Origin: Streptomyces celluloflavus
Lineage (GTDB): Bacteria; Actinomycetota; Actinomycetes; Streptomycetales; Streptomycetaceae
Reading direction: 5' to 3'
NCBI GenBank assembly: GCA_000720995.1
Contig: JOEL01000003.1
Location: forward strand, 124,001-188,000
DNA: 64,000 bases
Shown: positions 1,219 through 11,590 of the stretch, one piece after another
Layout: every line of letters starts with the position of its first letter
How positions within the stretch are numbered: the first letter of the stretch is position 1
Position numbers and translations under genes: made by a program
Notes under the pieces: model-generated
The model's input: the letters and a program-made list of their open reading frames with translations, nothing else
What the model was told of the DNA's origin: nothing
The model's database searches: none

Positions 1219-1977
1219 TCAGTCCGAGGCGGCGACCGCCGTTCCCGGGGGCGCCGTCGCGGGCTCGGGGGCCAGTAGCCGCTCGGCGAGTTCGCCGAAG
1301 GCGAGGCCGAAACCGCCCCACAGGGTGATCTGTATGGCGAGGGCGGAGAGGCGGAACCGCCACAGCAGGGTCGCGGGGAAGTTCTGCGGCACCTCGTTGA
1401 TGACGGGCAGGAGGGCGTACGCCAGACCGATCACGAGGGCGAAGGCCGCCACCGCGACGACCGTGGCGTACCAGGTGCCCAGGTGGGGGGCGAGCCGCTT
1501 GCCCAGGAGGGTGGCGGCGATCGCCAGGAGCACGCTGAGCAGCATCATCAGGAAGTACAGGGTCGTGCGCTTGCCGATGGTGTCGGGCTCGCCGACCGAC
1601 GGCGGGTTGGCCGGGTACTTCAGGAACGGCACGACGTACACCGCGAGCAGCGCACAGCCGGACAGCAGCAGTGCGGTGGCCCGCGGGGTGAGGCGGCCGA
1701 CGCGGCCGAGCGCGAAGCAGTAGGCGAGCGCGGCGATGCCGCCGAACGCGACACCGTAGACCAGGACACCGGTGGCGAGACCGGCGGTGGACTGGAGGCC
1801 GCGGGAGACGAGCTCGACCTCGTGCTCATGTGCCGGGGCGTGGGCCTCCTCGAAGCCGATGGCGCCGTCGACGTTCGGCTCACCGAGGAAGTAGGCGACG
1901 ATCAGGGCGAGCACACCGGCCGTGAGACCGGCGAGCATGCCCCGCACGAGCAGGTTTCTTACCGTTGCGGAGTTCAT
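1219..1977 (-). CDS. cbtA: CbtA family cobalt transporter subunit
   Basis: 252-residue integral membrane protein with about six hydrophobic segments, starting [15 protein letters not shown]. CbtA is the predicted membrane subunit of a B12-regulated cobalt uptake system and works with the small protein CbtB. A His/Glu-rich extramembrane loop ([13 protein letters not shown], about residues 43-55) after the first segment is a plausible metal-binding site. It lies 21 bases downstream of cbtB on the same strand, and the pair sits behind a cobalamin riboswitch, so synthesis should fall when B12 is plentiful. The family role in cobalt transport comes from comparative genomics more than biochemistry. 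Confidence 0.88.
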
Positions 1978-1998
1978 GGGTATGCGGCATCCCTCGCG

Positions 1999-2220
1999 TC
2001 AGTGGCAGGGGAAGCCGAGCAGGTGGCGTCCGTCGTGTACCCATTCGTGGACGTCCGCACCGCTGATCACGGAGGTGGCGCCCTGCTCGGCGCCGACGAA
2101 GTACAGCAGGACGAGCATCAGGATGCCGAAGAAGACCGCCCAGGGGGCAATCGCTGTCAGCGGCAGCTTGGCGGGTACGACGGGGGTGGTGGCAGTCGGC
2201 TGGGCGACATGCTGCGCCAT
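1999..2220 (-). CDS. cbtB: CbtB small cobalt transporter subunit
   Basis: 73-residue protein with one membrane segment (about residues 25-46) and a histidine-rich C-terminus, VHEWVHDGRHLLGFPCH, which is the hallmark of CbtB. The start at 2220 was chosen because GAGGAGG lies 7 bases upstream. A longer frame back to 2292 would run through the riboswitch. It is the first gene of the cbtBA operon and is presumed to present cobalt to CbtA. The family is normally 60-75 residues, so the length fits. Confidence 0.88.
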   Translation of the reverse strand: MAQHVAQPTATTPVVPAKLPLTAIAPWAVFFGILMLVLLYFVGAEQGATSVISGADVHEWVHDGRHLLGFPCH

Positions 2221-2661: not shown

Positions 2662-3741
2662 ATGCGTCCCTGGAAGATGTGCGGGCTCGCAGTGGTTGTC
2701 GCGGTGGCCGCCACGGCGTGCGGTGGCGGCGGTGCGGCGGAGGGCGGCAAGGGGACCGGTCCGGCTGCCACGGGGAGCGGCGGCTCCGGATTTCCGGTAC
2801 GGGTCACGGACTGTCAGGGCGTGCCGACCACGTTCCCGGCGGCGCCCGCCAGGATCGTGACGAGCAATGCCGCCGCACTGGAGATGCTGCTCCGGCTGGG
2901 GGCGGGCGACCGGGTCATCGGCACGGGATTCCCGCCCGGCAAGGGCACTCTGCCCGCGGATCTCGACGCGCGGGCGCAGCGGGTGCCGGTGCTGGGGAAG
3001 ATGGTGATTCCCAAGGAGAAGCTGCTGGGCTCCGGGGCGGATCTCTACATCGACACGTTCGCGTCGATGGAGCACATGGGCGGGGCGGGTGACGCGCCGA
3101 CCGCGCAGGAATTCGCGTCGGCGGGGATCCGGCACCTCTATCTGGCCTCCACCGCCTGTGCGCCGATGGCCAAGGAGCCGCAGCGGGACCTGTCCGGTGT
3201 GGAGGGCGATCTCACCCGGCTGGGGGCGGTGACGGGGACCTCGAAGCGGGCGGCGGAACTCGTGTCGGGGATGCGGGCGAAGGTCGCCGCGGTGCACAAG
3301 GCGATCGGTGAGGTGCCGCCGGAGCGGCGGCCGGGCTACTTCTTCTTCGACTTCGACGCGGGGACCAAGCAGCCGATCGCCGTCTGCGGCAAGCAGGTCG
3401 CCAACGCGGTGATCAACCAGGCCGGGGCCCGCAATGTCTTCGACGGCTGCGACGGCGCCTTCCAGCGGGTCTCGTGGGAGGACGTGGTCGGCAAGAACCC
3501 GGACTGGATCCAGTTGGCCGTGCGCAACCGCGGTGACGCGGCCGCGAACCGCAAGGCGTTCGAGGAGGCCGCGGCCTTTCTGAAGGGCTTCCCCGCCACC
3601 AGGGGGCTCAAGGCGGTGCGGGACGGGAAGTTCCTGCGGATCGGCTCGGAGCGTACGACGATCGCCGGGGTCGGCAATGCGGACACGGTCGAGGAGATCG
3701 CGCACACCCTCTACCCGGCCCAGTTCGCGGCGGCCCGGTAG
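2662..3741 (+). CDS. Substrate-binding lipoprotein of a BtuF-type ABC transporter
   Basis: 359 residues. A lipoprotein signal ends at a lipobox ATAC with C20 as the lipidation site, followed by a Gly-rich linker. The mature part has the class III (siderophore/B12) binding-protein pattern: PARIVTSNAAALEMLLRLGAGDRVIG near the front and a ligand lobe after a long helix. It starts 7 bases after GAGGAGA. It is first in a three-gene operon with a FecCD permease and an ATPase. The cobalt and B12 neighbours suggest a corrinoid. Related actinobacterial trios have been called F420-0 transporters, and a siderophore cannot be excluded. The ligand is not visible from the sequence. Confidence 0.82.
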   Translation: MRPWKMCGLAVVVAVAATACGGGGAAEGGKGTGPAATGSGGSGFPVRVTDCQGVPTTFPAAPARIVTSNAAALEMLLRLGAGDRVIGTGFPPGKGTLPADLDARAQRVPVLGKMVIPKEKLLGSGADLYIDTFASMEHMGGAGDAPTAQEFASAGIRHLYLASTACAPMAKEPQRDLSGVEGDLTRLGAVTGTSKRAAELVSGMRAKVAAVHKAIGEVPPERRPGYFFFDFDAGTKQPIAVCGKQVANAVINQAGARNVFDGCDGAFQRVSWEDVVGKNPDWIQLAVRNRGDAAANRKAFEEAAAFLKGFPATRGLKAVRDGKFLRIGSERTTIAGVGNADTVEEIAHTLYPAQFAAAR

Positions 3742-3818
3742 TGGGGGCGCGCCCCGCGGTGCGGGCCGCCGAGAAGCCCCCGGCACGGCGGCAAGACCTC
3801 GTACGAAAGGAGATCCCC

Positions 3819-4892
3819 GTGCGCGAGGACGGCCCCGTACGGGACGACACCGCCGGGCGGGCCGGGCGCGGTGTGCGGACGGGGGTGCTGGCGGTGGGGC
3901 TGGGTGCCGCCCTGGTGGTGGCGCTGACCGTCGCGGTGTCCCTGGGCGCCACGGACATCGCGCCGGACCGGGTGTGGTCGGTGGTGTTCCGGCGGCTGGG
4001 GGGTGCGCCGCCCCGGCCGGGTACCAACGATCTGATCGTGTGGCAACTCCGGCTGCCGCGGGCCCTGTTGGCGGCGTGCGTCGGTGCCGGGCTGGGCCTG
4101 GTGGGGACGGCGACCCAGGCGCTGGTGCGCAATCCGCTGGCGGACCCGTATCTGCTGGGCATCTCCAACGGCGCGTCGCTCGGCGCGGTCGGTGCGATCG
4201 TGCTGGGGGCGGGCACCGGCGGTCTGCTGGGGCTGGGGCTGTCGGCGGCCGCCTTCGCGGGGGCGCTCGCCGCGTTCGCGCTGGTGTGGTTCATGGCCCG
4301 GCGGGGCGGGGGCTTCTCGCCGCTGCGCCTGGTGCTGGCCGGGGTGGGGATCGGGCAGTTCCTCTCCGGATTCACCAGCTATCTGGTGCTTCAGGCCGGT
4401 GACGAGCAGCAGACCCGCAGCGTGCTGTTCTGGCTCATGGGGAGTCTGAGCGGGGCGACCTGGCAGGTGCTGTGGCCGCCGGTCCTCGCGGTGGCGGCCG
4501 GGCTGCTGGCTCTGCAGGCGCGCGCCCGTGCGATGAACGCGCTGATCATGGGTGACGAGACGGCCGCCGGGGTCGGTGTGGACGTCACCCGCCTGCGCCG
4601 GGAGCTGTTCGTGGTGACCAGTCTGCTGACCGGTGTGCTGGTCGCGGTGTCCGGGGCGGTCGGCTTCGTGGGGCTGATGGTGCCGCATCTGTGCCGGCTG
4701 GTCGTCGGGGGCGATCACCGGCGGCTGCTGCCGCTCTCCGCGCTCACCGGGGCGCTGTTGCTGGTGGTGGTGGACATCGTGTGCCGTACGGCGATGGATA
4801 CCCAGGAACTGCCGGTGGGTGTGGTCACCGCGATGATCGGGGCGCCGGCCCTGTTGTTCCTCCTGGACCGGCGGATGGCGGTGGGCCGGTGA
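3819..4892 (+). CDS. FecCD/BtuC-type ABC transporter permease
   Basis: 357 residues with about nine to ten hydrophobic segments and family motifs RLPRALLAACVGAGLGLVG, NPLADPYLLGISNGAS and GFVGLMVPHLCRL. I chose GTG at 3819 because AAAGGAGA precedes it at ideal spacing. The same frame is open back to a GTG at 3741 that overlaps the previous stop, but this would add 26 charged residues not usual for the family. It forms the membrane channel for the preceding binding protein and overlaps the next gene by 4 bases. Confidence 0.87.
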   Translation: MREDGPVRDDTAGRAGRGVRTGVLAVGLGAALVVALTVAVSLGATDIAPDRVWSVVFRRLGGAPPRPGTNDLIVWQLRLPRALLAACVGAGLGLVGTATQALVRNPLADPYLLGISNGASLGAVGAIVLGAGTGGLLGLGLSAAAFAGALAAFALVWFMARRGGGFSPLRLVLAGVGIGQFLSGFTSYLVLQAGDEQQTRSVLFWLMGSLSGATWQVLWPPVLAVAAGLLALQARARAMNALIMGDETAAGVGVDVTRLRRELFVVTSLLTGVLVAVSGAVGFVGLMVPHLCRLVVGGDHRRLLPLSALTGALLLVVVDIVCRTAMDTQELPVGVVTAMIGAPALLFLLDRRMAVGR

Positions 4893-5704
4893 ACGTCGGG
4901 ATCGAGGATCTGCATGTCGCCTACGCGGGGCGGAACGTGGTCGCCGGGGTGCATCTGATGGCCGCGGCGGGCGAGATCGCGGGGCTGGTCGGGCCCAACG
5001 GGAGCGGCAAGTCCACCGTCCTGCGGACCGTCTACCGGCATCTGCGGCCCGCCGCCGGACGGGTCCTGCTGGCCGGCGCCGATATCCGCACGCTGACGCC
5101 GGGGCAGACCGCGCGGCATGTCGCCGCGCTGCCGCAGGAGCGCGGCAGCGACTTCGAACTGGCCGTGCGGGAAGTGGTGGCGATGGGCCGGACGCCCTAC
5201 AAACGCGCCTTCGCCGGCGAGGACCGCGACGACCGGGAGACGGTGGCCCGGTCGCTGGCCGCCGTCGGCATGGCGGGGCAGGACGCCCGCCGCTTCGCGG
5301 CGCTGTCCGGCGGCGAACGCCAACGGGTGCTGCTGGCACGGGCGTTCGCGCAGGATCCCGATGTGCTGGTCTTGGACGAGCCCACCAACCATCTCGACGT
5401 ACGGCACCAGGTGGAGCTGCTGGCCCTGCTGCGGGCGCAGCGCCGTACGACGTTGATCTCGCTGCACGACCTGAACGCCGCGGCGTCGCTGTGCGACCGG
5501 CTGCATGTGCTGCACGGCGGGCGGGTGGTGGCGTCCGGCGCGCCACGCGCGGTGCTGACGCCCGAGCTGCTGGCCGAGGTGTTCGGGGTGCGGGCCGCGG
5601 TGACCGAACACCCGCTCACCGGCGACCCGTTGATCGCCTTCGACCACCGGCGGCTGCCGCCGTCCTCCCCCGCGTCCGGCGGAGGGCCCGACGGCGAGGG
5701 CTGA
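4889..5704 (+). CDS. ATP-binding subunit of the BtuFCD/Fec-type transporter
   Basis: 271 residues. Walker A GPNGSGKST, signature LSGGERQR, Walker B VLVLDEPTNHLD and switch His in LISLHDLN are all present. The GTG start overlaps the permease stop (GTGA), so the two are translationally coupled. It energises import of the metal-chelate ligand at the inner face of the membrane. Its last 10 bases lie inside a ~95-bp repeat whose inverted partner is near 8.7 kb. Confidence 0.9.
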   Translation: MNVGIEDLHVAYAGRNVVAGVHLMAAAGEIAGLVGPNGSGKSTVLRTVYRHLRPAAGRVLLAGADIRTLTPGQTARHVAALPQERGSDFELAVREVVAMGRTPYKRAFAGEDRDDRETVARSLAAVGMAGQDARRFAALSGGERQRVLLARAFAQDPDVLVLDEPTNHLDVRHQVELLALLRAQRRTTLISLHDLNAAASLCDRLHVLHGGRVVASGAPRAVLTPELLAEVFGVRAAVTEHPLTGDPLIAFDHRRLPPSSPASGGGPDGEG

Positions 5705-5789
5705 GAGCCTGCCGGGTGGCCGGCCGTGACCGGTGAGTGATCAGGCCGGCAGGTGCGACGGGTACGGCGGAGGCTCCGGAAAAATCGCG
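5695..5789 (+). repeat. 95-bp repeat, copy A (inverted partner at 8621-8715)
   Basis: Aligned without gaps to the reverse complement of 8621-8715, with 82 of 95 positions identical by my hand count. Long identical blocks include GGGTGGCCGGCCGTGA and CGGTGAGTGATCAGG. It overlaps the last 10 bases of the ABC ATPase gene and points into the opine-like cassette. Neither the short peptides it could encode nor an internal stem is conserved between copies, so it looks like a DNA-level repeat rather than a gene. Confidence 0.8.
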
Positions 5790-5855
5790 TGGTCGCGCGA
5801 ACGTGCCGCCCTTCACCCAGCGGCGGAAGCGGGTACGGAGCGTGGCCCGGGGGCC

Positions 5856-5887
5856 GTACGGCTCGGGGACGTCCCGCCGAGCCGTAC
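5856..5887. terminator. Strong hairpin, probable terminator
   Basis: 11-bp perfect arms GTACGGCTCGG/CCGAGCCGTAC around a 10-base centre that is itself partly palindromic (GGGACGTCCC). It lies between convergent operons. Confidence 0.65.
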
Positions 5888-5933
5888 CCGTCCGGGACTG
5901 CCACCCGGTCCCGTTGCGGAGCATCCGGTCGTC

Positions 5934-5974
5934 CAGCCGTTGCCACCCCGCTCTCGCCAGGGCGGCAACGGCTG
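5934..5974. terminator. Second hairpin between convergent operons, probable terminator
   Basis: 11-bp perfect arms CAGCCGTTGCC/GGCAACGGCTG with a 19-base loop that can pair further (CCC/GGG). Read from the minus strand it follows the FAD oxidoreductase gene. Confidence 0.6.
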
Positions 5975-6101
5975 CACGAAGGCCCGCTCCGCATCGGACG
6001 GTTCATGGCGGCGTATCACCCGGGCGTGATCCCCGACTCGGGATGATTCGACGCCAGAACCCGGATCGTCTCGATGCGGCGCGGGGACCGGCAGTTCAGG
6101 G

Positions 6102-7145
6102 TTACTTGCCGAGGTAGAGGTCGCGGAGGAGCTCTCCGGCCGCGGGTGCCTGGCACAGGCCCGTACCGGTGAACCCCGTCGCGTAGAAGAAGGGCCGGGA
6201 GGGGTCCCGGCCGATGAGAGCGGTGCCGTCCTTGCTGGAGTCGAAGGAACCGGTCCATCCGCGACGGAGGCGGATGCCCTCAAGGGCCGGGTAGGTGGTG
6301 CCGAGCTGCCGGGACAGCCGCTGGAGCCACGCCTCCCGGGATTCGTCCTGCCGGGGGCGGCCCATTCCGACGAGGATGCGGTCCTTCCAGGCGCGGATCC
6401 GCATTCTGGTGGGGTGCAGGGTCATCGGCAGGTTGGTGAACGGCACCGCGGGAGGGTCGGCGAGGAGCAGTTCCGTGGGCTCCGGAGTCATCGGGAGGTG
6501 GACGCCGGCCATGTCGCCGACCGTCTCCGACCAGGGGCCTGCCGCGCAGATGATGTTCTCGGCGAGGATGCTGCCTGCGGGGGTGTGGACCCGCCCGTCG
6601 GGGTCGATGCCCGTGACGGGGGACTCCGTGCACACGACGGCGCCGGCCTCCTGGGCGGCCGCGGCGTAACCGCGCACGATCGCGGTGGGGTCGCAGGAAA
6701 AGGCATCGGGCGACCAGGCCGCCGCCAGGATGGTGCGCTCGTCGAGCAGCGGGTTGAGGCGCGCCGCTTCGGCGGCGCTCACGAGCTCGACGTCCACTCC
6801 CGCGGCCTGCTGCGCGGCGTGGTCGCGGCGGAACTTCGCCACCTGCTCCTCTTCGGTGAACAGCACCATGAACCCGACACGTTGCAGGCCGAGCGGGGTT
6901 CCGGTGCGCTCGGCGAAGGCGTGGTAGGCCGCCATGCTGCGGGCGGCGAGGCCGCCGGTGCGGGCGTCGTTGGGGAAGTAGGTGCGTACGACGTTCGCCG
7001 TGGCTCCGGACGCCCCCGATCCGAGCGTGCCGCGCTCCAGCAGGACGGTGCCGACGCCGGCCTCGGCGAGATGGCAGGCGATCGAGGTGCCGATGACCCC
7101 TCCGCCGATGACGAGGGCTTCGGTGCGTTCGGGCAGCTCGCTCAT
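6102..7145 (-). CDS. DAO-family FAD-dependent oxidoreductase
   Basis: 347 residues with an N-terminal dinucleotide-binding motif (VIGGGVIGTS, residues 12-21, then LLERGTLGSGASG) and a C-terminal FAD motif (FFYATGFTGTGLCQAPAAGELL). This is the D-amino-acid oxidase, sarcosine oxidase and opine oxidase fold: it oxidises C-N bonds of amino-acid-like substrates. ATG at 7145 overlaps the stop of the upstream gene by 4 bases, so it is translationally coupled to the cucumopine-synthase-like protein. I infer that the two act on the same imidazole- or opine-type amine. The electron acceptor is not evident. Glycine/sarcosine oxidase-like activity is the alternative. Confidence 0.85.
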   Translation of the reverse strand: MSELPERTEALVIGGGVIGTSIACHLAEAGVGTVLLERGTLGSGASGATANVVRTYFPNDARTGGLAARSMAAYHAFAERTGTPLGLQRVGFMVLFTEEEQVAKFRRDHAAQQAAGVDVELVSAAEAARLNPLLDERTILAAAWSPDAFSCDPTAIVRGYAAAAQEAGAVVCTESPVTGIDPDGRVHTPAGSILAENIICAAGPWSETVGDMAGVHLPMTPEPTELLLADPPAVPFTNLPMTLHPTRMRIRAWKDRILVGMGRPRQDESREAWLQRLSRQLGTTYPALEGIRLRRGWTGSFDSSKDGTALIGRDPSRPFFYATGFTGTGLCQAPAAGELLRDLYLGK

Positions 7146-8110
7146 GCCGGCTGCCCCACTTCGGCGCGGCGCTGCTGGCGCAGCGGGTCCGCGGCGTCCC
7201 ACGGGAACAGATGCAGGTTCCAGCCCCCCAGGCAGTTGATGTAGAGGGCCATATGCCTCGCCACGGCCAGGAAGTCGTCACGGTCGAGACGGTCCAGGCA
7301 GGACATGAAGCGCTGGGTGAAGTCCCACAGCTTCTCCAGACCGCAGTAGCCCAGGAACTCGGCCGGGACACCGACCAGCAGGCGTGCCATCTGGCGCACG
7401 GAGTCCATCGGCATGTCCGCGACGGCGGCTCGGATCAGGCCGCCGTAGGCGGCGTACCCCAGCGGGCGGGTCTCACCGTTGACGAACAGAAGGGTGGGCA
7501 GGACCGTCTCGTTGGTCCCGGCCCTGGAGGGGATCAATCCTCGGTGCATATCGCCGAGCTCGGCGGGTTCGGACAACCAGATCCGCTCCGTCTCGGCGTG
7601 CACGTCGTGGATCAGCTGGTTCGCCTCGGCGTCTGCGGCGGTCAGCCGGGGGATGCGGTGGCCGCCCGCCTCGCCCGCCCTGCGGACCTCCACCAGGATC
7701 TGCTTCTTCGTCGAGTAGACCGCCTCCCAGACGGCCTGTCCGGCTTCGAGCAGGGTCGATATGTCCTCCGCCAGGACCTGACCCACGGGGGCCGCCGGCA
7801 TCGGTTCGGTCAACTCGCCGTACTTGATGCCCAAATGCTGAAGCGCGGAGCAGAACACCGTCCCGTCGGGCGCCTCGCGCCGGTCGGCGATCTTGTAGGA
7901 CGCGTGCGTGTGCAGCAGCGAATGGATCGGCGCCACGTGATACAGATGCTCTCCCGCCACCAGCGCGTGCCCCTGGAGGCTCTGGTAGGGCAGCGATTCC
8001 CACAGTGCATCGGCCAACTCGGGGTTGCGATCGTCGAGTTCCGCGGTGACGGTGAAACCCACACCGGGCCAAGCGATCTCAATGCGCCGTCCGGGTAACG
8101 TCTCAGACAA
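7142..8110 (-). CDS. Cucumopine-synthase-like protein (cyclophilin-like plus helical domain)
   Basis: 322 residues. The N-terminal ~140 residues resemble the cyclophilin-like DUF3830 fold (IEIAWPGVGFTVTAEL, NPELADALWESLP, GEHLYHVAPI). The C-terminal ~170 residues are helical, with the conserved-looking block YINCLGGWNLHLFPW near the end, as in the cucumopine synthase C-terminal domain. Agrobacterium cucumopine and mikimopine synthases condense histidine with 2-oxoglutarate. Homologues outside Ti/Ri plasmids are of unknown function. I placed the start at a TTG (8110) behind AAGGGGAAG, where the similarity begins; ATG at 8230 would add 40 unrelated residues. It is first in an operon with an FAD oxidoreductase, and the pair is bracketed by inverted repeats. 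The family call rests on remembered motifs. Confidence 0.6.
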   Translation of the reverse strand: MSETLPGRRIEIAWPGVGFTVTAELDDRNPELADALWESLPYQSLQGHALVAGEHLYHVAPIHSLLHTHASYKIADRREAPDGTVFCSALQHLGIKYGELTEPMPAAPVGQVLAEDISTLLEAGQAVWEAVYSTKKQILVEVRRAGEAGGHRIPRLTAADAEANQLIHDVHAETERIWLSEPAELGDMHRGLIPSRAGTNETVLPTLLFVNGETRPLGYAAYGGLIRAAVADMPMDSVRQMARLLVGVPAEFLGYCGLEKLWDFTQRFMSCLDRLDRDDFLAVARHMALYINCLGGWNLHLFPWDAADPLRQQRRAEVGQPA

Positions 8111-8783
8111 GGTCTTCCCCTTACGTTTCGATGAGATGTCACCTTCCCTGTCACGGGAGACGGGGAAGGTGCTCCAAGCCACAGTTGTCACTTCCGCACG
8201 AGAACAACACGCCTTCCCCACCCGCCACAAGAAGAAATCGGGCCGCCCCTTGCGTGCCCGCGCCCCTCAGCCTGCGGGCTGTCCCCCACGGGCGACTGCA
8301 ATCCCAAGGAATCGACCCCGCCCCGCCCTGCGTCTTGGCGCTGGCGCGTGCGTTCACGCCCACAATCCAAGAGCGGGCTCCGCCTGCCGACTTTCCGAGT
8401 GAGGAACAGCGCACGCTTTTCGGTCACTTCACCGAGGAATCGGACGAGGGACAGCTCGCCCGGGTCCTTCCTGCCGGGTCGGACCGCACGGCGCCGGGCG
8501 ATGGCCGCGCGGGGAGGGCCGATGGCCGCGCGTGCCGGCTCGGAACCGGATCGGCTGAGCCGTGCCGATGGGCACATGAGCCGCTGGCGGACCCGGAGTT
8601 GTCGCACGAGCACACACCTACGCAATCATTCCGGGGCCTCCGCCATACCCGACGCACCTGCGAACCTGATCACTCACCGATCACGGCCGGCCACCCGACA
8701 GGCTCTCCGCCCTCACCGGCGCAGACCCGGCGACCGGCCCCGCACCGGTCACCGGTCGTCCCGCCCCGGTCGCCGGTCGCCGG
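8111..8783. other. Gene-free region upstream of the opine-like operon
   Basis: 673 bases between the cucumopine-synthase-like start and the end of the isocyanide synthase. It carries repeat copy B (8621-8715) and, next to it, short CCGGTC-rich repeats (8730-8780). The operon promoter should lie in about 8111-8250 on the minus strand, but I could not pick -10/-35 boxes with confidence. No credible gene was found in either direction. Confidence 0.6.
8621..8715 (-). repeat. 95-bp repeat, copy B (inverted partner at 5695-5789)
   Basis: Reverse-complement match to 5695-5789. This copy lies just downstream of the isocyanide synthase gene in the same orientation relative to that gene as copy A has to the ABC ATPase gene. 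Together they frame the opine-like operon as terminal inverted repeats would. I saw no target-site duplication beside them. Confidence 0.8.
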
Positions 8784-9809
8784 TCATCCCTCGCCGGTGG
8801 CCTCGTAATGGCTCGGCCGTCCCTGGCGCAGGACCAGGCGGCCGAGCCGTTCGGCGTCGGCCCGCCGCATCAGTTCCCGCCGGCCGTCCGTGTGCCGGAG
8901 CAGACAGGAGTGCCAGGGCGTCAGCCATACGTCGGGGGCGTCGAGCAGGCGTATGCCGAACTTGGCCGAGCCCCGTGGCTGCGGGTGGATGGAGAGCCGG
9001 CACGCGTCGGGGTGGTGTGCGGCGATCAGGTCGCCCCAGGCGCGGCTGCGCTGGATGACGCCGTACGCGCGGGTGCGGCAGTCGCGCTGCAGCGCCGAGC
9101 GGGAGCCGGTGAAGGAGACGGTGTCCTCGAAGAGGAACCGGGTGATGCCCTGGTAGAGCCGCCGGGTCGGCTCGTCACCGCGTGTCTGGGCGCGCAGGGT
9201 CTCCAGGGACGGTGCGTGGCGGGCGTGGATCCGGGTGCGCTTCGCGTCGTTCGGCAGGTCCCCGTAGACGTCCCGCAGGTCGAAGACGTCCAGGTGGGTC
9301 AGGCCCTCGTCGCGGATCAGGGCGCGCAGCGCATCGCCGTAGGCGTCGATATGCCGGTCGGGGACGTGGACAAGGTCGCTGAAGACATGCCCGTCGGAGC
9401 AGATGAGTACCCGGGCGCCGGGCGGGTGCACGGCCGTGACGCGGGCGCAGAGGTCGTCGAGGAAACGCAGCGAGAGCCGTTCGCCCTCGTCCGGGAGGTG
9501 GCCGAGGACCTTGGCCGGGTTGGGGGACTTGCAGGGGAAGCCCGGCAGGGTGAACAGGACCGGCGCACCCGCCGCGACCCGCGGGGCGAGCTGGCGCAGT
9601 TGGGCCGGGTACGCGTCGGGGCCGAGGTCGTGGCCGGTGTCCAGCGTGCGCCGGTACGGCAGGAGGGTGGCGAGGATGGCGTGACAGGTGGCCAGGTGTG
9701 CGGCGGGGGCGCCCGGTGGGGGCTGGGGAGGGGTGACGGTCGGGTGGACGGGCGCGATGGCGGTCGCGATGGTGGTCGTGGTGGCGGGTCTGGTGCCGGT
9801 CGGTGGCAT
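8784..9809 (-). CDS. Isocyanide (isonitrile) synthase, PvcA/IsnA/DIT1 family
   Basis: 341 residues carrying the family core: FTLPGFPCKSPNPAKVLG followed by LPDEGERLSLRFLDDL, then a central SDGHVFSD and a C-terminal SIHPQ. PvcA-type enzymes turn the amino group of tyrosine or tryptophan into an isonitrile using ribulose-5-phosphate. The yeast relative Dit1 makes an N-formyl tyrosine precursor. ATG at 9809 follows AAGGAG, and the first ~25 residues are a Pro/Thr/Ala-rich tail. It is the second gene of a unit with a P450 93 bases upstream. The substrate amino acid cannot be read from the sequence. Confidence 0.85.
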   Translation of the reverse strand: MPPTGTRPATTTTIATAIAPVHPTVTPPQPPPGAPAAHLATCHAILATLLPYRRTLDTGHDLGPDAYPAQLRQLAPRVAAGAPVLFTLPGFPCKSPNPAKVLGHLPDEGERLSLRFLDDLCARVTAVHPPGARVLICSDGHVFSDLVHVPDRHIDAYGDALRALIRDEGLTHLDVFDLRDVYGDLPNDAKRTRIHARHAPSLETLRAQTRGDEPTRRLYQGITRFLFEDTVSFTGSRSALQRDCRTRAYGVIQRSRAWGDLIAAHHPDACRLSIHPQPRGSAKFGIRLLDAPDVWLTPWHSCLLRHTDGRRELMRRADAERLGRLVLRQGRPSHYEATGEG

Positions 9810-9901
9810 GGGGGCTCCTTCGGTGGCCGGAGGCGGTGGCGGGGCGGCGGCCGAGCTGCGGCCGGGGGTGTCGCGGGAGGGTGGGGCGGCGGGCGGCCGG
9901 G

Positions 9902-11215
9902 TCAGCGGTCGCCGCGCTCGTGCCCGGCGGCGGCCCCGTGTCCGGTGACCGGGCACCGCGCGGGCGGGGCGGCGCCAGTACCGGCGCCGGGGCCGGGCCG
10001 GTAGGTCACCGGCAGCCGGTCGACCCCGCGGGCCAGTACCGCGGGGGTCCAGCGGAGTTCCGCCTCGGGGACGGCCAGTTGGAGGCCGGGCAGTCGGCGG
10101 AGCAGGGTGCCCAGGGCGATCCGGAGTTCGACGCGGGCCAGCGCGGCGCCGGGGCAGAAGTGGGTGCCGTGGCCGAAGGCGAGGTGGGTGCGGTGGGGGC
10201 GGTCGAAGTCGAGGGTCTCGGCGTCGGCGAAGTGCCGGGGGTCGCGGTTGGCCGCGCAGAGCGAGACGATCACCGAGTCGCCCGCCGGGACCCGCGTCCC
10301 GTGCAGGTCGGCGTCCTCGGCGAAGAAGCGCCAGGTCGTCAGCTCGAACGCGCTGTCATGGCGGAGCAGTTCCTCGACGGCTCGGGGCAGCAGTTCCGGG
10401 CGGCGGGCGAGGGCCGCGAGGTGCCCGGGGTGGCGCAGCAGGGTGAGCAGGGCGGTGGTGATCTGCTGGGTCACCGGTTCCTGCCCGGCGACCAGGAGCT
10501 GGAAGATCATGGAGTCCAGCTCCTCCTGGTCGAGCCGGCCGCCGTCGCGGGCGGCCACCAGCCGGGAGAGCAGGTCCTCGCCGTACTCACGGCGTTTGTG
10601 GACGACCAGGTCGGCGATGTACCGCTGGAGCCCGCGCAGCCGGGCCTCGTACGCGGCCCGGCCGGGGTCCGTGGGGCCGACGGGCTGGACGACCTTGCCC
10701 CAGTCCCGGTCGAAGCGCCGCTGGAACTCCGGTGGCAGCCCGATGACTTCGGCCAGCACCTGGAAGGGGAAGCGGGCCGCAAAGGCGTCGACGAGGTCGG
10801 CGTGCCCGGTGGCGGGGAGTTCGTCGAGCAGCGCGTCGGCGAGGGCCTGGAGGCGGGGGCGGAGGCCGTCGACGCGCAGCGGGGCGAAGGCATCGGTGAT
10901 GAGGCGGCGCAGCGCGGTGTGCCGGGGCGGGTCCTGGTGGAGCAGATGCACCTGGAGCTGGGAGTGCTGCGGTTCGGGCATGATCGACGCGCGGGCCCGC
11001 CAGGCGGCGTTGCCGCGCGAGTGGTGCTTGCCGAGCCGGTCGTCGGTCAGCGTCCGGCGGGCGGCTTCGTACCCGGTGACGAGCCAGGCGCACACTCCGC
11101 TGGGGAAGCGGACCCGGTGGACCGGACCGCGCTCGCGCAGTTCGGCGTAGAGCGGGTACGGATCGCGCTTGTAGTCCGCCCCGTACAACTCGACGGGGTC
11201 GGGGATTGCGGCCAT
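9902..11215 (-). CDS. Cytochrome P450
   Basis: 437 residues. The heme loop FGHGTHFCPGAAL, the helix-K ExxR (EELLR) and helix-I LLVAGQEPVTQQI are visible. The conserved helix-I Thr after the acid is replaced by Pro (AGQEP), which occurs in P450s with unusual oxygen activation. ATG at 11215 has GAGGAGG 6 bases upstream. The C-terminus carries a ~30-residue Gly/Pro/Ala tail. It precedes the isocyanide synthase, an order recalling the yeast Dit1/Dit2 pair, so it probably oxidises the isonitrile or formyl-amino-acid product. It needs ferredoxin and a reductase from elsewhere. Confidence 0.92.
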   Translation of the reverse strand: MAAIPDPVELYGADYKRDPYPLYAELRERGPVHRVRFPSGVCAWLVTGYEAARRTLTDDRLGKHHSRGNAAWRARASIMPEPQHSQLQVHLLHQDPPRHTALRRLITDAFAPLRVDGLRPRLQALADALLDELPATGHADLVDAFAARFPFQVLAEVIGLPPEFQRRFDRDWGKVVQPVGPTDPGRAAYEARLRGLQRYIADLVVHKRREYGEDLLSRLVAARDGGRLDQEELDSMIFQLLVAGQEPVTQQITTALLTLLRHPGHLAALARRPELLPRAVEELLRHDSAFELTTWRFFAEDADLHGTRVPAGDSVIVSLCAANRDPRHFADAETLDFDRPHRTHLAFGHGTHFCPGAALARVELRIALGTLLRRLPGLQLAVPEAELRWTPAVLARGVDRLPVTYRPGPGAGTGAAPPARCPVTGHGAAAGHERGDR

Positions 11216-11590
11216 GGCGGCCTCCTCACGGGGGTGGGTCACCGGGTGCTGCCGGGTTGACGGCGCGGGCCGGTGGTGTGGACCGGGCCGGGACGGCACG
11301 GCGTTGGAGAGGTCGGGCGGGACGCGTGTCGAGTTCCCGCCGGGACCGGAGGTTTTCGTCCGCGCGGAGGTGAACGGCGCGGGCCGCAAACCCAGTTAGT
11401 CGCGGCCGGGGGCGCGTCGGTTCCGGCGGGGACGGAGGACAAACCTCACGCGTCTCACCGGCCGCTTTCGTGCGTCCGGGCGGGGTCGCGGCTGCCACCA
11501 TGACGCCATCGGACGGCTGTTGCCACGCGCACCCCCGCCCCCTCGTTCTCCTCCCCTCCCCCACTCCTCCCTCCGAGCACTGGAGCGGCG
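11216..11590. other. Divergent control region between the P450 and copper operons
   Basis: 375 bases without a credible gene; it must hold both promoters. Two imperfect copies of a ~19-bp GC-rich segment occur near 11333 and 11421 (CCGCCGGGACCGGAGG and CCGGCGGGGACGGAGG). Their role is unknown. Confidence 0.5.

Follow-up and report, generated by a model that had tools for sequence, protein, structure and literature searches.

An overlapping gene pair for a predicted McbB-type Pictet-Spenglerase and a DAO-family oxidoreductase in Streptomyces celluloflavus: a probable minimal beta-carboline pathway

Analysis of a 64,000-nucleotide stretch of Streptomyces celluloflavus DNA (the window) revealed two overlapping genes that probably constitute a minimal pathway to a beta-carboline alkaloid, with protein A joining tryptophan and an aldehyde and the DAO-family protein B aromatising the ring thus formed. 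Judged from its sequence and its predicted structure, protein A is a full-length McbB-type Pictet-Spenglerase. Systems of this kind are already known and the window pair is a new stand-alone member; the initial annotation had held that nothing comparable was described in Streptomyces, but StnK2/StnP2 (PMC4742848) and a proposed pyridindolol cluster (PMC7955054) are in print, as the available sections of both reports show. Cucumopine-type names obscure a family of actinobacterial beta-carboline clusters to which the pair points, and the combination of Pictet-Spenglerase and DAO provides a simple signature for genome mining.

The gene pair and its two proteins

Gene A (positions 7142-8110, minus strand) encodes 322 amino acid residues from a TTG start at 8110 to a stop codon ending at 7142, and gene B (6102-7145, minus strand) encodes 347 residues from an ATG at 7145 to a stop codon ending at 6102. 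Stop and start overlap in the ATGA at 7142-7145, read directly in the sequence, and through this common ATGA the two minus-strand genes look translationally coupled, as was noted initially. A putative ribosome-binding site, GGGGAAG (8114-8120, minus strand), lies 5' of the TTG start of gene A. G+C contents at the third codon position of 0.876 for gene A and 0.908 for gene B reveal an actinobacterial codon bias in both. Comparison with the L002 homologues (Jukes-Cantor) gave a dN of 0.114 and a dS of 0.332 for gene A (ratio of about 0.34) and a dN of 0.147 and a dS of 0.270 for gene B (ratio 0.54, less strict than A). The excess of dS over dN, together with the third-position bias, indicates that both genes are under constraint.

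Protein A matched the Pfam family Cucumopine_C (PF18631) with 153 bits (cut-off 27), the single match to this family in the source genome (G000); a PF18631 search across the phylum matched the source genome only (1/396) and yielded no further distant relatives. DUF3830, in contrast, scored 11.9 bits against a curated cut-off of 26, Cyclophil_like stayed below its Pfam cut-off, and NCBIfam gave no match at E up to 1, so that of the cucumopine-synthase-like and DUF3830 features first ascribed to protein A the former are retained and the latter label is not. The top sequence match in the PDB was 3x27 (E 8.8e-92, residues 8-307), an entry whose molecule name reads cucumopine synthase and whose title is McbB in complex with tryptophan, an identification also found in the accessible text of PMC11015028. 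An AlphaFold model of protein A (pLDDT 88.0; 30 rows), with a cyclophilin-like N-terminal part and a helical-bundle C-terminal part, matched 3x27 in Foldseek with a TM score of 0.91 and an rmsd of 1.5 Å.

Protein A shares 50.2% identity with McbB over 299 columns, whereas identity to the DUF3830 protein of the Rhizobium plasmid pRi_26-59 (L140) is 31.6% over 304 columns, and its closest relationship is not to the Rhizobium/Agrobacterium synthases. It is about equidistant from McbB (50%) and the streptonigrin-type clade (52%, to L075). Among the 21 plasmid records that matched protein A, 20 were below 60% identity and the remaining one was from Nonomuraea. PDB entries for KslB ranked after 3x27 and covered only about 140 columns; the KslB group aligns to protein A in swapped order, corresponding to a circular permutation, and protein A keeps the McbB order. 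Homology to McbB is full-length and non-permuted and extends to the fold.

Protein B (6102-7145, minus strand) is a DAO-family FAD oxidoreductase, as initially proposed, and a putative tetrahydro-beta-carboline-3-carboxylate oxidase in view of its PF01266 match, its similarity to 1y56_B and its pairing with A. The DAO score (PF01266, 214 bits) exceeds the cut-off, a GxGxxG motif is present as GGGVIG at residues 14-19, and the fold agrees with membership of the family; ThiO, sarcosine oxidase and other NCBIfam families all scored under their cut-offs. The top PDB sequence match was 1y56_B (E 7.9e-37), an L-proline dehydrogenase, and this was also the first Foldseek match of the model (pLDDT 90.7), closely followed by glycine oxidase, dimethylglycine dehydrogenase and sarcosine oxidase.

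Conservation of the pair and the neighbourhoods of its relatives

Pairing was surveyed in 79 loci, 29 from a genus search without the own genome (L002-L030) and 50 of 53 from a scan of named genomes; L036, L077 and L078 were dropped as duplicate contigs, judged by length, and further duplicates may remain among the 79. The genus search had given matches in 33 of 392 sampled genomes, the own genome and fragments being counted. Loci were divided by identity into bands W (at least 70%), N (60-70%) and V (below 60%). A homologue of B lies directly downstream of A on the same strand in 74 of the 79 loci (W 28/31, N 35/37, V 11/11), and in 61 of these 74 the estimated gap is 10 nt or less. The conserved pairing that the initial annotation had suggested surveying was thus found, and protein A does belong to the cucumopine-synthase superfamily; neither of the two results that it had named as refuting, a missing fold match or a missing pairing, was obtained. 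For L082 the pairing relies on just 55 matched residues; gene A is divided between two frames there and in L027. As for the unpaired loci, L030 contains only pieces of both genes, L032 has a B homologue 5 kb away and in two frames, L072 has one upstream on the opposite strand, and in L033 and L073 none was found within the stretch examined.

Four of the 79 loci (L020, L027, L030 and L082), in which the best piece was shorter than 280 residues or contained a stop, were excluded from the alignment and the tree. In the tree the window clusters with L032 and L005 (100/96), within a set of 28 rows (99/100) to which the four pyridindolol-type loci discussed below also belong (tree names L006, L007, L009 and L014). 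Support for the N band as a group is weak (84/56), L074 falling outside it, and McbB, L140 and L142 are on long branches of unsure placement, L140 standing apart.

McbB residues R72, H87 and E97, which we take to be active-site residues, were mapped through the single offset at which all three letters agree with the 3x27 chain, and they correspond to R77, H92 and E102 of the window protein. McbB and all 76 actinobacterial rows, the window among them, share these three residues without exception; in L140 of Rhizobium a gap, K and E stand at these positions. A literature search on the roles of the McbB residues gave no McbB text among the matches listed.

To compare neighbourhoods, we called and clustered the genes of 78 loci, taken with flanks of at most about 9 kb: 31 of band W (the window among them), 37 of N, 9 of V and 1 other. 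Pfam was run on one representative each of the phosphatase, polyketide-cyclase, deaminase, carbamoyltransferase, AMP-binding, aldehyde dehydrogenase, methyltransferase and aminotransferase types; xanthine dehydrogenase, XdhC, LLM and clade-N P450 types were assigned by reading the sequences. Close to the pair, the W loci contain a histidine phosphatase (28/31), an SRPBCC/polyketide-cyclase-like protein (24/31), a deaminase-like protein and a carbamoyltransferase (23/31 each), a xanthine-dehydrogenase-type protein (13/31), AMP-binding and aldehyde-dehydrogenase proteins (7/31 each) and an LLM oxidoreductase (4/31); the AMP-binding and carbamoyltransferase types occur together in three loci (L032, L034 and L038). 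All nine V loci with long flanks combine methyltransferase, cupin and aminotransferase, and one clade-V cupin matches the solved cupins 7eqk and 6j4b. A P450 is present in 33 of 37 N loci. The neighbours of the relatives are of biosynthetic type and are consistent with beta-carboline pathways.

A cluster of Pictet-Spenglerase, DAO, carbamoyltransferase, SRPBCC-like protein, histidine phosphatase and deaminase recurs in band W (L085, L087, L039, L090 and others), in some cases with xanthine-dehydrogenase-type genes. A full-text literature search, in which subscription journals were barely covered, gave no description of a carbamoyltransferase-type beta-carboline cluster from Streptomyces, and this cluster, whose carbamoyltransferase is near the pair in 23 of 31 W loci, is the most interesting loose end of the survey.

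Surroundings of the pair in the window

The window is the sole W locus (1/31) without any surveyed accessory gene near the pair; AMP-binding, aldehyde dehydrogenase, phosphatase and LLM genes are all absent beside it. Nor was an AMP-binding partner found in the source genome G000 by a search that matched the controls G258 (source of the query) and G064 at E <1e-220 and G002 at 1e-130, with no match in G016; a carbamoyltransferase partner was likewise not found in G000, and the controls G016, G002 and G284 matched. Histidine phosphatase gave 11 matches in G000, the best on contig C62 with 67% identity to that of the clade. This match sits within a 393-aa frame whose start resembles RNase HI, and the other 18 partner-family queries had no match in the 20 kb examined of this 35-kb contig; we rejected it as a split-off part of the cluster, and the frame is probably a housekeeping fusion. 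As accessory genes are missing nearby and AMP-binding and carbamoyltransferase partners were not found in the genome, the surroundings of the window pair do not reveal its product, and these two genes may be a remnant.

On one side the pair is flanked by an ABC transporter ATPase gene, which ends at 5704, and on the other by a DIT1_PvcA-like gene, which ends at 8784. The pair is enclosed by a 118-nt inverted repeat, the left arm of which (5689-5806, plus strand) is 82% complementary to the right arm (8604-8721, minus strand). The left arm overlaps the end of the ATPase gene, starting within its last 16 bases, and the right arm stops 62 bases short of the DIT1_PvcA-like gene. Just downstream of the operon, a repeat remnant (5794-6061, minus strand) has matches of 72-81% identity in several Streptomyces genomes, falling within positions 195-462 of the query (G027, G005, G006, G020, G010, G026 and G004) and being near contig ends in G010 and G020; it reads to us as the 5' part of a presumed IS5-type transposase gene. 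Either the relocation of a cassette or the reduction of a larger cluster to a remnant could explain this arrangement.

That the pair is a relic of a larger cluster, trimmed by rearrangement or insertion sequences and now making no product, nonetheless appears unlikely. The lack of accessory genes at this one locus of 31 and the repeats surrounding the pair would fit such a history, but both reading frames are intact, the invariant residues are retained, and dN is below dS for both genes, if less strictly for B.

Beyond the repeats, a cobalamin riboswitch (RF00174, 2257-2390, minus strand) precedes two minus-strand genes (1219-2220, minus strand), and a FecCD-type ABC transporter set (2662-5704, plus strand) lies beside it; together they are likely to serve cobalt/B12 uptake. 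On the other side, at 8784-11260 (minus strand), the DIT1_PvcA-like (isocyanide-synthase-like) gene adjoins a P450 gene.

Proposed pathway and known systems

In the beta-carboline pathway that we favour, protein A would join an aldehyde to L-tryptophan in a condensation that gives a 1-substituted tetrahydro-beta-carboline-3-carboxylate. The aldehyde would probably be of a small sugar-phosphate type, such as glyceraldehyde-3-phosphate or erythrose-4-phosphate, the latter being the aldehyde of StnK2, and the histidine phosphatase near the pair in 28 of 31 W loci fits a phosphorylated aldehyde. The FAD enzyme B would then oxidise C-N bonds, and two rounds of oxidation would aromatise the ring, giving an aromatic beta-carboline-3-carboxylate. 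Oxidation of a ring C-N bond is the natural guess for B because tetrahydro-beta-carboline-3-carboxylate shares with proline the character of a cyclic secondary amino acid. Family, fold, coupling, the conserved pairing and the conserved residues were observed directly; amine, aldehyde, aromatising role of the DAO and formation of a product by two genes plus housekeeping enzymes are what we infer. Aromatisation by an FAD and/or F420 enzyme has been put forward for pyridindolol, as a proposal and not as a test in the available part of that report (PMC7955054). A second DAO-like gene lies upstream in seven of the 11 V loci and downstream in L081 (flank lengths differ), so that the function of each single DAO is harder to assign.

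The pathway would also change if the Pictet-Spenglerase acted as known but the DAO supplied its carbonyl substrate, turning an amine or amino acid into an aldehyde or oxo acid without aromatising the product. This arrangement would suit the close relationship of B to glycine oxidase, sarcosine oxidase and dimethylglycine dehydrogenase. We regard it as distinctly unlikely, since the first structural match of B acts on a cyclic secondary amino acid and the pyridindolol proposal, as far as the accessible text of PMC7955054 goes, uses a glyceraldehyde-type C3 unit and has the FAD enzyme aromatise. Points against the favoured pathway are the missing accessory genes at the window, the about equal distance of protein A from McbB and from the streptonigrin-type clade, the acyclic-amine enzymes among the structural neighbours of B, and the statement, in the accessible text of PMC7024544, that McbB performs its own oxidation, by which a separate aromatising enzyme would not be strictly required. 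The stand-alone window pair offers a clean two-gene test of a DAO as aromatase. More tentatively, and with considerable doubt, the pair may be a self-sufficient two-enzyme route to a so far unreported 1-(polyhydroxyalkyl)-beta-carboline-3-carboxylate with minimal decoration, and would then be a reduced version of a larger W-clade pathway of the carbamoyltransferase type, itself undescribed and retained by most of the clade.

The nearest published layout is the proposed pyridindolol cluster of Streptomyces sp. ID38640 and S. alboverticillatus, described in the available text of PMC7955054 with a Pictet-Spenglerase of 322 aa (49% to StnK2), an FAD oxidoreductase of 370 aa (39% to StnP2), an AMP-binding protein (352 aa), an aldehyde dehydrogenase (453), a histidine phosphatase (218) and an LLM oxidoreductase (293). 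Its authors propose tryptophan and glyceraldehyde(phosphate) as precursors and report that the cluster was missing from antiSMASH output. Compared by description, it resembles the window in having a 322-aa Pictet-Spenglerase followed by an FAD oxidoreductase, and differs from it in the four further genes, which the window pair lacks nearby. In four W loci (L088, L089, L091 and L096) the Pictet-Spenglerase and DAO genes are accompanied by those for an AMP-binding protein, an aldehyde dehydrogenase and, on the opposite strand, a histidine phosphatase and an LLM oxidoreductase; these loci agree with the published description in gene order and have roughly similar protein sizes.

StnK2/StnP2 of streptonigrin (and lavendamycin) likewise unite a Pictet-Spenglerase and an FAD oxidoreductase. 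According to the accessible part of PMC4742848, stnQ1-stnK3-stnR makes the beta-methyltryptophan used by StnK2; the methyltransferase-cupin-aminotransferase set of clade V resembles these genes, and clade V was typed from this cassette. It shares 48-52% (A) and 40-43% (B) identity with the window pair, which in contrast to 9/9 V loci has no beta-methyltryptophan-type cassette.

McbB of marinacarboline (3x27) is like protein A in fold, domain order, invariant residues and identity. In the available text of PMC7024544, mcbA, mcbB and mcbC are solely responsible for the marinacarboline scaffold, and unlike the window pair this account includes no DAO partner. KslB of kitasetaline (9ns6, 9nst and 9k0a) consists of the same two parts and is, by the entry titles, an L-Trp Pictet-Spenglerase, but is circularly permuted. 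For literature from 2024 on, no paper was found on the crystal structure of a Streptomyces Pictet-Spenglerase forming tetrahydro products.

Producers of beta-carbolines are found among Streptomyces, Kitasatospora and Nonomuraea strains, as stated in the accessible portions of PMC12735770 and PMC7148486, and the latter describes the nonocarboline cluster of Nonomuraea as still to be elucidated. Pictet-Spenglerase, DAO and P450 occur together in many Nonomuraea and Actinomadura genomes (most of L040-L074, L079 and L080), and through the two-gene signature the P450-containing loci become testable candidates for nonocarbolines.

Cucumopine synthase joins histidine and 2-oxoglutarate. Proteins resembling cucumopine/mikimopine synthase on Rhizobium, Agrobacterium and Sinorhizobium plasmids belong to the superfamily of protein A with 24-32% identity, and the one compared, L140, does not have the R and H positions in common with it. 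An opine pathway, in which protein A would make a cucumopine-like product from histidine and an oxo acid such as 2-oxoglutarate and the DAO would be an opine oxidase, is highly improbable and the cucumopine/opine assignment was rejected on identity, residues and neighbourhood: it has in its favour the common superfamily (PF18631) and the likeness to the pRi_26-59 protein, whose gene is beside hutH and hutC, but protein A is far nearer to McbB, the Rhizobium protein lacks the equivalents of R77 and H92, the clade-V pairs adjoin a beta-methyltryptophan-type cassette, and no histidine or opine uptake or catabolism genes were found among the window neighbours. Of the imidazole-type opine or Pictet-Spengler product envisaged at the outset, the Pictet-Spengler chemistry is supported and the histidine/opine part is not.

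On plasmid pRi1724 (L141), the annotation divides the cucumopine-synthase-like match between two adjacent genes, for a DUF3830 family protein and a hypothetical protein. Another Streptomyces genome (L111, G302:C2) carries a gene for a permuted, KslB-like Pictet-Spenglerase, recognised from the order of its two pieces.
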